Shown one piece after another: positions 13,165 to 32,374 of a stretch of DNA of 32,498 nucleotides. This DNA is from Candidatus Omnitrophota bacterium (lineage in GTDB: Bacteria; Omnitrophota; Gorgyraeia; Zapsychrales; Fredricksoniimonadaceae). Under the pieces are notes generated by a model, which saw nothing but the letters and a program-made list of their open reading frames with translations, was not told where the DNA came from and ran no database searches. Where the stretch lies: the NCBI GenBank assembly GCA_013285735.1, contig JABDGZ010000019.1, forward strand, positions 1 to 32,498, written 5' to 3'. The translations under genes were made by a program, and so were the position numbers. Within the stretch, counting starts at the first letter, position 1. Each line of letters starts with the position of its first letter.

Positions 13165-15330
13165 TTAAAAGCCAATCGTGAGCTTCATCGTCACCTGATT
13201 AGCCGTATAACCGTCATCTCTTATAAAATAATCGTACCCCGCTTCAATCGACCATGTTTTCTTACTGCATACACACGAAAGAAGTGTGATAGCAGCACCC
13301 ACATTATATGTATCAGGAGACGTCTTAAGTCCTGTCGTATAAAACGAAGGTGATCCTGGGGCCGTAAAATTTGCAGTCTGTCCCTGCGTTGGATTAAGGA
13401 AATCATAAAGCCACTTGAAATGGAGATCAGGAATAAGTGTCCAGTTATGATAACCGAAGCCACGCTCCACCTTCGCTCCCAGGCCAGACTCGAGAAAATC
13501 ATAGCCCTGTGGCTTTGCATGCAAATCGATGTCACCAGCACCTGTTTCCGTATAGCTATCTAAATTCACACGGCTATATTGAAGTGAGGCAAGCGGCGTG
13601 ATCACAAATTGTTGAGGTACCGCAATGTGATACCCGGAATTCAAATAAGTAGTGTAGTCTTGCCCGTCGTACTCGGATTTCGCTGTTAGATCTACACCAG
13701 GGAACACAATATTCCGCATGCCTGAATACTGATTAATACCGACTGACTCACTACCATTGATGTACCAGGGACCTTGTTCATGACCGATATAGACCGTTGG
13801 TTGGTAAGAATCAAACTCCGTGTTGGTATTATAGGTGTTGCCATCGATGGTAGTATGTGCGTACCCAAAACCTAATCCCGCGCGTGTGTCCGGCCCCAGT
13901 GGTGTGTCGTAAGCGATCATCGTACCAAATATACTTGAAGAATATCCCGAGAATGCGCCTTGATCTTGCTGGTTACCAAAATATCCAAACCCTTTTGCCC
14001 ACCAACCACCATGCGGATCATTTTCCTGACAGTTCGAGGTATCATCATACGGCCGGCTAAACTGGCTGCACATATCCAGACGGGACAACCAAAGATTCTC
14101 AAATTCACGGGCGCCTTGAAATGTTACCAAGGGTGCCGCCAAACTCGTCGCCGATGGATTAAGCTGGGCGACCGCGTTAATAACCGCTGCCGGGTCTGTA
14201 AGTGCATTGATTGCCGTTAAAACACTGGTAAGTCCTGCTGTTAGAGAAATGCCTAATAAGACTGGTACTACCGGATTGGATGCTACCTGTAATGGGACGC
14301 TATCCGTTTTTATTTCTGCCTGACCATTGGGACCATTGACAATAGAGAACTTATAAAGTGGATTGGTAGGATCTGTAACCGTGGCAAGAGCACCCGTACC
14401 GCTTCCTTGGACAACAGTGAACTCGTTTCCAGGTACAATTAATGAGGTAGTTGGAATATTTACATCGATGGCAAGTCCTGTTCCAAGCCCTGAAGCTCCT
14501 CCAACCACTATCACGTGGCCATAAATTGATGAACTATACAAGGTCGTATCAATGACCCCGTTAGTACCGATCGTCAAGGCACCGTTAATATTTAATGTAT
14601 TTGTCCCGAGAGAAAATTTATACGTATCTACCGCACCAACGATTGTTGCACTCACTCCGGAAGAATTAGTCCCACCAACAACACTGATGTCCTTAAGACC
14701 ACTGGCACCACCGACAGCACCAGTCAGTTGACTATTACTAGCAAGATCTAAGGTGCCTGTACCAGCCGTATTCGTAAAGAGAGCGCCTGTGACTGTTGTA
14801 TTTGCAGAAAGAGAAATCGTACCGTCACCGGTAAAAGTTGTCCCCGCTGACACGGTGTTCGCGGTCCCGCTTTCGAAATTCACTGTACCGGTTCCGACAT
14901 TCATCGCGGTTGTATTGACCGCCCCTAGAAAAGTATCCGTATTGGTACCGGCACCAGCGGTGATGTTGAGAAACCTTTGAGCTCCTCCTATATATCCATA
15001 CACCGTCGATGTGCCATTGAAAACAATATTAGACTCACTAGCAACATCAGTGGTGATCGCAGGAAGCAAAGAATTAATCGCGACACCAGAGCTTAATTCA
15101 TTTTCGGTAAAAATATCCTGTGTCCCAACATTCAAGGTCCCGCCACTACCTTGACTGACCATCTCAACACCACCCGTCACACCCGTTCCACTGCCAGGTG
15201 CGCTTGCATTGGTTCCGCTCAAATTAATGGGTGTACTGCCGGTGATTGTTTGCCCATCAAAAGCAAAACCCGGTGAGCACCAAACCATAATAAAAATAAC
15301 GATAAACAAAGAATAAAATATTCGTTTCAT
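13165..15330 (-). CDS. Autotransporter (type Va secretion) with short Gly/Thr/Asn-rich passenger
   Basis: The protein has 721 residues. ATG 15330 has a strong AAAGGAG at ideal distance. A signal peptide (MKRIFYSLFIVIFIMVWCSP, cleavage near GFA-FD) is followed by a repetitive Gly/Thr/Ser/Asn/Val passenger (about 25-350) whose short strands (GTGTVNFESG, GTGTLDLASNSQLTG, GTNTLNINGALTIG) fit a beta-helix. Residues 350-420 form a linker with helical parts. Residues about 441-721 form the autotransporter beta-barrel: GGWWAKGFGYFGNQQDQGAF, GTMIAYDTPLG, LGFGYAHTTI, alternating strands, and the last residues VTMKLTIGF ending in Phe as needed for BAM assembly. Four cysteines (C421, C434 and a CVC near the end) are unusual for the class. 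The passenger function is unknown; adhesion or surface coating is a guess. Confidence 0.88.
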   Translation of the reverse strand: MKRIFYSLFIVIFIMVWCSPGFAFDGQTITGSTPINLSGTNASAPGSGTGVTGGVEMVSQGSGGTLNVGTQDIFTENELSSGVAINSLLPAITTDVASESNIVFNGTSTVYGYIGGAQRFLNITAGAGTNTDTFLGAVNTTAMNVGTGTVNFESGTANTVSAGTTFTGDGTISLSANTTVTGALFTNTAGTGTLDLASNSQLTGAVGGASGLKDISVVGGTNSSGVSATIVGAVDTYKFSLGTNTLNINGALTIGTNGVIDTTLYSSSIYGHVIVVGGASGLGTGLAIDVNIPTTSLIVPGNEFTVVQGSGTGALATVTDPTNPLYKFSIVNGPNGQAEIKTDSVPLQVASNPVVPVLLGISLTAGLTSVLTAINALTDPAAVINAVAQLNPSATSLAAPLVTFQGAREFENLWLSRLDMCSQFSRPYDDTSNCQENDPHGGWWAKGFGYFGNQQDQGAFSGYSSSIFGTMIAYDTPLGPDTRAGLGFGYAHTTIDGNTYNTNTEFDSYQPTVYIGHEQGPWYINGSESVGINQYSGMRNIVFPGVDLTAKSEYDGQDYTTYLNSGYHIAVPQQFVITPLASLQYSRVNLDSYTETGAGDIDLHAKPQGYDFLESGLGAKVERGFGYHNWTLIPDLHFKWLYDFLNPTQGQTANFTAPGSPSFYTTGLKTSPDTYNVGAAITLLSCVCSKKTWSIEAGYDYFIRDDGYTANQVTMKLTIGF

Positions 15331-29687: not shown

Positions 29688-29999
29688 TTATTTACGTTTT
29701 GATCCCATCAAATAACCCAATAAAAGAGATGCTGCAGCGGTCCCAGCGATATAAACCCACGGATCCTTATGCACGCGCTTATCCACATCACTCGCTATTT
29801 CAATGACCTTATCACGGCCTTGAGCAATCGCCTCTTTGCCTTGTTCTACCCCGGCTGCCATTGCCTCCTGGATATGTGCGTATCTGTTGCCTATGATGCC
29901 TTTTAATTCATCTCTCTTTTCCTTAGCTGCTTCGTTCAAAAGTTCGAGGGCTTCAGAGATCTTTGCATTGCTTGTCCTGATATGTGTTTCTGTTGTCAT
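29688..29999 (-). CDS. DUF883/YqjD/ElaB-like membrane-anchored protein
   Basis: The protein has 103 residues. ATG 29999 has a strong AAAGGAGA upstream. Residues about 8-75 form an amphipathic helix rich in Glu, Lys and Ala (ISEALELLNEAAKEKRDEL, EAMAAGVEQGKEAIAQGRDK, VDKRVHKDPW). A single C-terminal transmembrane helix (YIAGTAAASLLLGYLMG) and a basic tail GSKRK complete it. 'VxxxPW-xxxGxAAxxGxLxG' is the DUF883 signature. YqjD and ElaB in E. coli are inner-membrane proteins that bind ribosomes in stationary phase and are under stress control. By homology this protein may anchor ribosomes or the chromosome to the membrane when growth slows. It is the first gene of the nine-gene run and follows motif copy B. 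Confidence 0.82.
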   Translation of the reverse strand: MTTETHIRTSNAKISEALELLNEAAKEKRDELKGIIGNRYAHIQEAMAAGVEQGKEAIAQGRDKVIEIASDVDKRVHKDPWVYIAGTAAASLLLGYLMGSKRK

Positions 30000-30190: not shown

Positions 30191-32374
30191 TTATGCTGCC
30201 ATCTGCTGAACTTCTCCACTATTCATCCCTAAAAACGTGGGTAAACTTTTCAAAGGATAAATATAGAAAACCTGCGCTGTAAGGCCAGATCCTGTCGTGA
30301 TGCTCGTAGTAAGAGCTGTATCAGTCGCAAAGGTGATCGTCCCACCCTGATTGCGCACATCTAATGGTGTGGAGCTTCTTGTTAAATCGATACCACCGTC
30401 CGCTGGCTCAATGGAGCTGTTTACCGCGGCAAGATTTGACAATACCTCATGCGTAGAGTCAGGAGTGACCGTTGCCACAACATTCGCCTGACCACTTGCA
30501 TTTTGAACAACGAGAATAGCCGTCTGTATGGCCTGACTTTCAACCGGAGTCAAACCTGATGTAGGCACAGCCTGTAACTGCCCTAATAATGGTTGCCCAT
30601 AATTTTGCCAATCTGTAACACCTTCTGCAGCAAATGCACCAGCAAATACTTGATATAGAATTGGAGTAGGACCTGGAATAAAGGCTAACGTCACAACTCC
30701 TTGTTCCAGATGAACTGCCGGTATTGGAGTAGCAAAATTCATAGCTACATATTGGGAGTCTGGAAAGAACACAACTCCATCCGCAACACCATTAGCCTTA
30801 ATAAAAACAGGTTTATCAGCATCGGGAATCTTTCCATTCGTCAAAATTTGATTCTGGGCAGCGGTTAATTGTGCCAACCCTGGTGTCGTAAATCCTGCTG
30901 AAGGACGTCCTGCCACTTGCTTATCATCCTGTAGGGCCTGTACCACGCTTAACTCGGCCGCAGTCGCTGCAGGTGTGCCGAACGCTAATGCTTGGCCATT
31001 CACATTAATCGCACTTGCACCATAATTAAAGGTGTAATTATTTGTTTGTGATGTATTAGGATCTGTGACACTCATGCTCAAAGGACTAAATGAGTTGATG
31101 ATATTGCTCTTATACCCGCCAATGTAAACACCTGTGGGGGCTTTGGTAGTAGTACCCCCACCACTGCCAGCGCACCCTACCATCAGTACTGCAAGCCCAA
31201 CTCCTAATCCTGCAATAGTGTTCCTAATGGAACTACCCATCATGCGATCATTCAAAACATATATATTTCTTGGCATGCCATTTACTGTAAACCCACCAGC
31301 AAAATACTTGCGAGGAATAATCTCGCTAGTAGCCGAATCTTTTTCTTCACTGATAATATTAAAAGCACCTTTCTTATAGGCTTGTACATATTGCTGCCAG
31401 ATCTTCGCTGCAGCAGCCTTATCCGCTACATTCACGCCTGCCACCTTGCCGCGATTGACATAGGCTGAGGATAGAATACTTCCTTGCATCCGTTCCTTAT
31501 ACCACATGGCTAAAATGATTGAACTATACACCTGACGCAAGGGGGCAAAATTGGCACCTGTATTGACCTCTTTTTCCAACATCGGAATAATGATCTGGCG
31601 CGTAATATCTCTGGATAACTTTTGTGCTGCTGTTAAAGTACCCAACTGAACAGCACCAACAGCAACAGCCTGCGCGTGTTTCTGAGTGGCAATATAATCT
31701 GATTCCAGCATAACCTTCAAACTGGATTGCACCACAAAGGCGGTGGCCTCATTATTACCCAACTTCTCATAAATAACAGCCTTATCTGGCATGATCCATA
31801 CTTTATTAAAAGTATTCACCGGAATCTGTGTCGTTCCGAACTGTTTTTGAGCCTGTGCATATATACTAGCCCAAAACTTTTTACCAGACTCACCTTGGGG
31901 GAACATCAAAGAAGCAGTGATCTGTTTGAGCAAATAATCCTGGCCCAAAAGATCGCGGCCCATTTCAGTCTGGCCAAATTTTTCGGAAATAACACGATTT
32001 TTTTCATAAGGAGAAAGATTGACCCAAATTTCACTGTCAGGCACTGTTAATGTCGTCAAAAAATATTTGAGAAGACGATTGGATGTTTCCTTAAGGCTGG
32101 CCTGAACTACGGGATCAATCTTGCCACTCAACATGGCTGCACGACCCTTATCACCAGGGTCTAAAATAAAATTAAAATTAAGCGGGTCATTGGTAAAAAC
32201 TTTGATACCACGCAAGACCGGTGGATTAATTGGATTTGAAAGCGCCACCATTGTCCCAGGTGCTGGGAGCGGAGCTAAATCTTTGCCCATTAATGACTGC
32301 GCATATGACGGGGACACAATGCTGGTGAAGATAAAGCTGGTACAAATCAAAAACGATAAAATTCTTCTGAACAT
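30191..32374 (-). CDS. Large exported protein of the Omnitrophota-type family with internal lipoprotein signal
   Basis: The protein has 727 residues. ATG 32374 has AGGAGG 6 bases upstream. A signal peptide (MFRRILSFLICTSFIFTSIV, cleavage near SYA-QS) leads into a conserved block (about 30-375): LPAPGTMVALSNPINPP, VNLSPYEKNRVIS, GQTEMGRDLLGQDYLLKQIT, TTQIPVNTFNKVWIMPDKAV, SSLKVMLESDYIA, and PRKYFAGGF. Residues 378-401 form a second signal-like stretch ending in the lipobox LMVGC (Cys401), then GSGGGTTTK. A Thr/Asn/Ala-rich middle (about 405-655) follows. The end GGIDLT, LDVRNQGGTITF, YPLKSLPTFLG again matches the family. I recall this block pattern as abundant in Omnitrophota genomes; function is unknown. 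The gene stands alone: motif copy C upstream, hairpin terminator downstream. Confidence 0.8.
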   Translation of the reverse strand: MFRRILSFLICTSFIFTSIVSPSYAQSLMGKDLAPLPAPGTMVALSNPINPPVLRGIKVFTNDPLNFNFILDPGDKGRAAMLSGKIDPVVQASLKETSNRLLKYFLTTLTVPDSEIWVNLSPYEKNRVISEKFGQTEMGRDLLGQDYLLKQITASLMFPQGESGKKFWASIYAQAQKQFGTTQIPVNTFNKVWIMPDKAVIYEKLGNNEATAFVVQSSLKVMLESDYIATQKHAQAVAVGAVQLGTLTAAQKLSRDITRQIIIPMLEKEVNTGANFAPLRQVYSSIILAMWYKERMQGSILSSAYVNRGKVAGVNVADKAAAAKIWQQYVQAYKKGAFNIISEEKDSATSEIIPRKYFAGGFTVNGMPRNIYVLNDRMMGSSIRNTIAGLGVGLAVLMVGCAGSGGGTTTKAPTGVYIGGYKSNIINSFSPLSMSVTDPNTSQTNNYTFNYGASAINVNGQALAFGTPAATAAELSVVQALQDDKQVAGRPSAGFTTPGLAQLTAAQNQILTNGKIPDADKPVFIKANGVADGVVFFPDSQYVAMNFATPIPAVHLEQGVVTLAFIPGPTPILYQVFAGAFAAEGVTDWQNYGQPLLGQLQAVPTSGLTPVESQAIQTAILVVQNASGQANVVATVTPDSTHEVLSNLAAVNSSIEPADGGIDLTRSSTPLDVRNQGGTITFATDTALTTSITTGSGLTAQVFYIYPLKSLPTFLGMNSGEVQQMAA

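Follow-up and report, generated by a model that had tools for sequence, protein, structure and literature searches.

The gene at positions 30191 to 32374 of the window, the whole 32,498-nucleotide stretch of DNA analysed here, encodes a member of a very large, undescribed protein family of the uncultured phylum Omnitrophota. Members appear to be exported, polyprotein-like chains that hold replaceable cargo between constant ends, and in the window protein the cargo is probably a pre-lipoprotein that would be separated from the rest of the chain and matured by Lgt/Lsp. The features of the gene, with the basis of each, are as follows.

30191 to 32374, minus strand: whole gene, a head-cargo-tail family member of 727 aa (ORF call, translation, own-genome search)
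32300 to 32374, minus strand: N-terminal Sec-type signal peptide, residues 1-25, ending ...SPSYA and followed by QS (sequence read by eye, aligned paralogue signal peptides)
31292 to 32299, minus strand: constant head (N-block), residues 26-361, ending RKYFAGG (paralogue alignment, AlphaFold, PDB fold search)
31238 to 31249, minus strand: degenerate junction motif D376-R-M-M379, against the family consensus D-x-A-M (motif comparison)
31175 to 31243, minus strand: putative internal lipoprotein signal, residues 378-400 (MMGSSIRNTIAGLGVGLAVLMVG), with positive n-region, h-region and lipobox (sequence, pattern scans)
31172 to 31174, minus strand: Cys401, the sole cysteine beyond the N-terminal signal peptide
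31145 to 31171, minus strand: Ser/Gly/Thr linker AGSGGGTTT, residues 402-410, after Cys401 (sequence)
30398 to 31171, minus strand: cargo, residues 402-659 (genome, Pfam and NCBIfam searches)
30194 to 30397, minus strand: constant tail (C-block), residues 660-727, GGIDL...FLGM (tail alignment, tail searches)

An earlier note on this DNA had proposed a modular scaffold with replaceable cargo, a proposal now strongly supported by about 46 paralogues and hundreds of relatives that share their ends and vary in the middle. The paralogue alignment that it called for, extended over the own and related genomes, gave constant first and last blocks and differing middles. Its conserved blocks stood, while their limits shifted: the head ends at residue 361 rather than near 375, and the tail starts at residue 660, at GGID, rather than near 658. 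In the own genome (1.84 Mb, 71% complete, Omnitrophota), all of the roughly 46 family places were extracted and read. They match the first ~365 residues of the window protein at 46-55% identity in open frames of 295-3,023 aa, tail copies likewise number 46, and the family ORFs total about 63,000 codons, or some 10% of the assembly. Alignments establish a common layout of constant ends and a replaced middle, namely a signal peptide, a ~335-residue head ending RKYFSGG, a middle of 0.1-2.6 kaa and a ~65-residue tail from GGIDL. The head was present in 56 of 193 sampled genomes of the phylum; all seven other members of the taxonomic family have it, as do 14 of 15 in the remaining order. The named relatives are labelled Omnitrophota, Omnitrophica, Omnitrophus or Elulimicrobium, except for one "bacterium" and one "Planctomycetales". 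Among the relatives' stop-terminated head ORFs, the tail is found in 65 of 75 and forms the extreme C-terminus in every case.

The middles carry unrelated and mostly cytosol-type Pfam domains, including Peptidase_M3, response regulator, histidine-kinase ATPase (several), hexokinase, glutamate and alanine dehydrogenase, methyltransferases, Fic, NUDIX, PP2C, FHA, HEAT, mTERF-like, ABC1 kinase, pentapeptide and GNAT; the majority have no Pfam match. Neither Pfam nor NCBIfam gave a match to the window protein, its head or its cargo, and no relatives of the window cargo, beyond the tail, were found in 81 genomes of the order. Searches of the literature on Omnitrophota for polyproteins, polymorphic toxins or paralogous lipoproteins returned no description of a head-cargo-tail family. 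At C14, C15, C2 and C20 of genome G000 (L040, L034, L070 and L036, respectively), the head ends in a short ORF and a downstream tail lies in another frame or behind stops, as in broken genes, assembly errors or frameshifts. Separately, REP-like palindromic repeats are translated in frame (IPAKAGIQ, HPERSEGSQQ, VLRSFANAQDDKS, DSRFRGND) within variable loops of the heads of L034, L036, L040, L053, L057, L059 and L061 and of the tails of L037 and L041. They resemble the intragenic palindromic elements of Rickettsia.

The internal lipoprotein signal of the window protein recurs where its cargo does not. The text reported by the earlier note, MMGSSIRNTIAGLGVG-LAVLMVGC-AGSGGGTTT, is present and runs from M378/M379 to G400, then Cys401 and the Ser/Gly/Thr linker; residues 378-410 read MMGSSIRNTIAGLGVGLAVLMVGC-AGSGGGTTT, with residue 401 as the candidate lipidated cysteine. 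Residues 378-401 fit the test pattern [LVIMFWSTAG]2-x-[AGS]-C after an uncharged h-region and a positive n-region. The two closest heads, at 62% and 64% identity, belong to L079 of genome G195 (1,453 aa) and L191 of genome G197 (1,011 aa). Among the three proteins, heads align at Z 189-251 and tails at Z 29-33, whereas the 41 aa after the head and the cargo each give Z -0.7 to 1.6, like shuffled sequence. A lipobox cysteine nevertheless stands at +40, +39 and +41 from the head end in the three proteins, two of which have a Gly/Ser linker after it. Internal lipoboxes number three in L079 and two in L191, each extra one opening a further cargo unit, and each of the six cysteines in the cargo of these three proteins belongs to a lipobox. 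Because the signal recurs in unrelated cargo and accounts for every cargo cysteine, it appears to be a selected feature. Neither outcome that the note had set against its own reading was seen: the relatives' middles are unrelated, each with a lipobox cysteine, in place of a shared middle lacking it, and cargo Z values near 0 against head values of 189-251 separate the middle from the conserved ends. Gene order does not support orthology of the three lipobox proteins, as L191 adjoins groEL and guaB-like genes and the window gene does not.

Across the family, the middles contain three PROSITE-like lipoboxes that have both an h-region and a positive n-region, against 0.15 per shuffle. Signal-peptide-like segments, counted by simple rules of our own rather than by a trained predictor, number 19 in all middles, where shuffled sequences gave 3-5 and reversed ones 4; of the 19, 11 lie within 120 aa past the head. 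Internal signals are confined to about 10% of the family, and many middles have none. A junction-like motif lies within 32 aa upstream of 12 of 23 internal signals (4.7 expected; one pair is a duplicate record). One internal signal of L191 is twin-arginine-like (SRRSFLG). Tat-like cargo signals were noted as SRRNLL near residue 1400 of L058, SRRDLL near middle residue 1828 of L069 and SRRSFL near residue 372 of L191.

The borders between units are marked by a recurrent motif. Its consensus, DxAMx[SAGTV], is found at head/cargo, cargo/cargo and cargo/tail borders; D-x-A-M occurs 84 times in the own-genome middles against 5.0 expected, and the second residue past the methionine is a small one. 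Relatives have 121 occurrences against 13.6 expected, and the other ORFs on their contigs show no enrichment (10 against 16.7). No site of 47 falls inside a Pfam domain, where 8.5 were expected, and six are no more than 5 aa away from a domain edge (against 1.6 expected; P=0.003); relative to the middle interior, density is 10x higher beside the head and 6x beside the tail. In six genomes taken regardless of motif, D.AM ranked first in four (G121, G071, G132, G128), second to D.SM in G131 and was absent from G177; G132 and G131 are the same assemblies as JAGVNC and CAIUQE, so these two are not independent of the single-genome motif counts. E.AM or D.AQ is favoured in single genomes, and distant members without D.AM have S-S-P-[VLAIM] instead (45 against 3.9 expected). 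The S-S-P-[VLAIM] members, L223-L235, belong to families f12, f21, f27 and f34 of the class, often with 1-3 copies per genome, and their state is perhaps ancestral. A motif that keeps its positions and changes by lineage is the expected trace of a co-evolving processing enzyme. Separate units in one frame with a recurrent junction, as in polyproteins, are found family-wide, the window protein contributing one degenerate junction: it has only DRMM, without a canonical DxAM, and no junction motif ahead of the tail.

The junction motif is a protein-level feature. In frame it occurs 84 times, against once in the other frames. The junction alanine codon is GCG in 53 of the 84 D.AM sites of the own genome (L031-L078), against a 17% background, and D.SM sites, also in the own genome, use TCG for serine in 9 of 19 cases, against about 8%; in relatives, the GCG bias was not seen. 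The aspartate codon is unbiased, and ATG is not replaced by GTG or TTG. A DNA-level repeat at the junctions was rejected because only the codons for D, A, M and the small residue carry information.

Cysteine is nearly excluded from these chains. It makes up 0.14% of cargo and 0.09% of heads, compared with 1.25% of other ORFs of the same contigs and 0.74% of exported-like ORFs outside the family, and no other amino acid shows a comparable shift. A hexokinase-bearing middle of 1,518 aa contains one cysteine. Cysteine-poor passengers are typical of proteins that cross the envelope unfolded, such as autotransporter passengers and RTX proteins. Since the exclusion extends to the cargo, the whole chain, beyond the head, would be taken to leave the cytoplasm. 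The window also encodes an autotransporter beta-domain protein (13165-15330; Pfam E 2e-53), whose cysteine content is an ordinary 0.69%.

AlphaFold gives a confident model of the head (pLDDT 88.5, pTM 0.88); against the PDB, the head had no sequence match and no fold match, the best probability being 0.06. For the tail, weak leucine-rich-repeat-like matches to Roco proteins in the PDB were disregarded, as no stretch passed alone. The full-length prediction of the window protein, with cargo pLDDT below 50 and tail about 56-75, is uninformative for topology. A head profile finds distant homologues in Streptomyces secreted proteins (~29% identity, E down to 1e-45). Their N-terminal regions are nuclease-like or deaminase-like (HSE...CxxC), and three of the five carry an LAxTG-type tail. 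These regions look toxin-like by eye, and Pfam gave no match in the two homologues scanned. Five such proteins (L188, L189, L195, L196, L197) come from Streptomyces plasmids, and in them the head homologue follows the deaminase- or nuclease-like regions, possibly an unlisted polymorphic-toxin architecture. In the Streptomyces homologues GG[IV]D flanks the head domain on both sides, which raises the idea that head and tail may form one split domain. The tail profile recovers only the GGID motif in Streptomyces, and no contiguous head-tail protein without cargo was found among the short members fetched.

These features may be combined into a model of a modular precursor. The Sec signal peptide, the ~335-residue head and the ~65-residue tail would act as a scaffold, with one or more exchangeable cargo proteins between head and tail. 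The junctions (D-x-A-M-x-small; elsewhere E-x-A-M, D-x-A-Q or S-S-P) are probably processing sites or protease-accessible linkers. The cargo of the window protein, L079 and L191 would be a complete pre-lipoprotein with its own n-region, h-region and lipobox cysteine, and its likeliest fate is to be parted from the head and then matured by Lgt/Lsp. We infer export of the whole chain, cleavage at the junctions and lipidation of Cys401 from the sequence pattern.

The topology of such a chain poses a problem. If the N-terminal signal exports the head, the later h-region would enter the membrane the wrong way round for Lgt, and the Tat-like internal signal of L191 sharpens this difficulty; a head signal, internal signals and cysteine-free cargo do not all fit a simple Sec topology. 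Cleavage ahead of export, or while it is under way, would avoid the wrong-way insertion. If the chain is split in the cytoplasm or as it is exported, each unit could use its own signal; alternatively, the entire chain may be exported, with the internal signals acting in some other way. The exclusion of cysteine from signal-less cargo, such as the hexokinase unit, points to whole-chain export and conflicts with cytoplasmic cutting.

We favour processing over an uncut use of the internal signals. It seems rather unlikely that the chain stays uncut, its internal hydrophobic stretch anchoring a periplasmic or surface scaffold and its junctions serving as flexible linkers. D.AM at domain borders could be a linker signature, the hydrophobic stretch of the window protein reads as long enough for a membrane span, and only about 10% of members have hydrophobic stretches, many middles having none. 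Linkers, however, leave the fixed D-x-A-M-x-small and the lineage switches to S-S-P unexplained, and an anchor does not account for cargo cysteines found only at lipoboxes in three cysteine-poor proteins. The plain membrane helix that the earlier note had offered as an option likewise leaves the cysteine and its Gly/Ser linker without explanation. A smaller chance still falls to the internal signals being functionless relics, carried in with whole genes of secreted or lipid-anchored proteins that were recently taken up between the constant ends. Such capture would suit cargo that is highly exchangeable and unrelated between close relatives, and junction methionines that in several cases read as signal-peptide start methionines; but the repeated signal-bearing unit keeps its lipobox in all three L079 copies and both L191 copies, and six of six cargo cysteines are kept at lipoboxes despite strong cysteine exclusion.

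An internal translation start at the junction methionine, freeing cargo with no proteolysis and also raised by the earlier note, is very improbable as a general mechanism. The methionine is invariant in the D.AM junction, and the GCG bias (53 of 84 against 17%) is a nucleotide-level one. Against this, the frame is open through every junction, the motif occurs in frame only, ATG does not give way to GTG or TTG and the aspartate codon is unbiased. No Shine-Dalgarno-like stretch was read before M378/M379, the first junction of L191 has no methionine in the stretch between head and SRRSFLG, and the S-S-P lineages have none there.

Beyond separation and maturation of the window cargo, we tentatively consider a dedicated Omnitrophota polyprotein system, somewhat less likely to be true than not. 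Occupying about one tenth of the assembly, it would take cargo of any origin, which loses its cysteines and is freed by a co-evolving protease at a lineage-specific site. Such cargo would include enzymes resembling those of eukaryotes and entire pre-lipoproteins bearing Sec or Tat signals, the nested signals being re-used after release. We know of no comparable bacterial system.

Omnitrophota are abundant, uncultured and suspected to be predatory or parasitic, and their effectors are not established. The shared ends (WVNLSPYE ... RKYFSGG ... GGIDL) offer a sequence handle for candidate effectors and for predicting cleavage sites, and because the junction motif switches by lineage, a co-varying protease could be searched for. 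Use of the internal lipoprotein signal would break the rule that such signals stand at the N-terminus and would raise a clear question of membrane orientation. The family-wide junction motif, its switch by lineage, the cysteine exclusion and the distant Streptomyces homologues go beyond the earlier note.

As in bacterial lipoproteins (Lgt/Lsp substrates, PROSITE PS51257-type), the window signal has an n-region with Arg, an uncharged h-region, L-M-V-G-C and a Gly/Ser linker. Unlike theirs, it is internal, about 375 residues in, behind a signal peptide and a folded head; where a lipoprotein signal lies at the translated N-terminus, Cys401 comes after a 335-aa head that itself follows a Sec signal. 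Polymorphic toxin systems (PMC3482391) likewise combine a constant trafficking part with exchangeable cargo, whereas the family places its cargo between head and tail, with several units per chain and mostly no known toxin. At the extreme C-terminus, the place of the toxin domain in those systems, 65 of 75 complete relatives have the constant tail. The window neighbour at 29688-29999 has a weak DUF883-like match and is not a recognisable immunity gene; immunity genes are often unrecognisable.

To our knowledge, the Mycoplasma hyopneumoniae system has no shared head or tail, no fixed junction motif of the family kind and no internal signal peptides. Its surface proteins and lipoproteins undergo several cuts from one precursor and include cytosol-type enzymes at the surface (PMC4772806), and the family, known here from sequence and presumably cut, resembles these endoproteolysed proteins. 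The giant ORFs of Omnitrophota/Velamenicoccia, defined as exceeding 20 kb and described as poorly conserved (PMC10066038), are from the same phylum and, like the family, are large, exported, multi-domain and poorly annotated; a word search of that paper returned no mention of paralogues or polyproteins. The window gene, at 2.2 kb, falls below their length limit, and the family differs from them in being mostly 0.5-3 kaa and in having both conserved ends and a junction motif.
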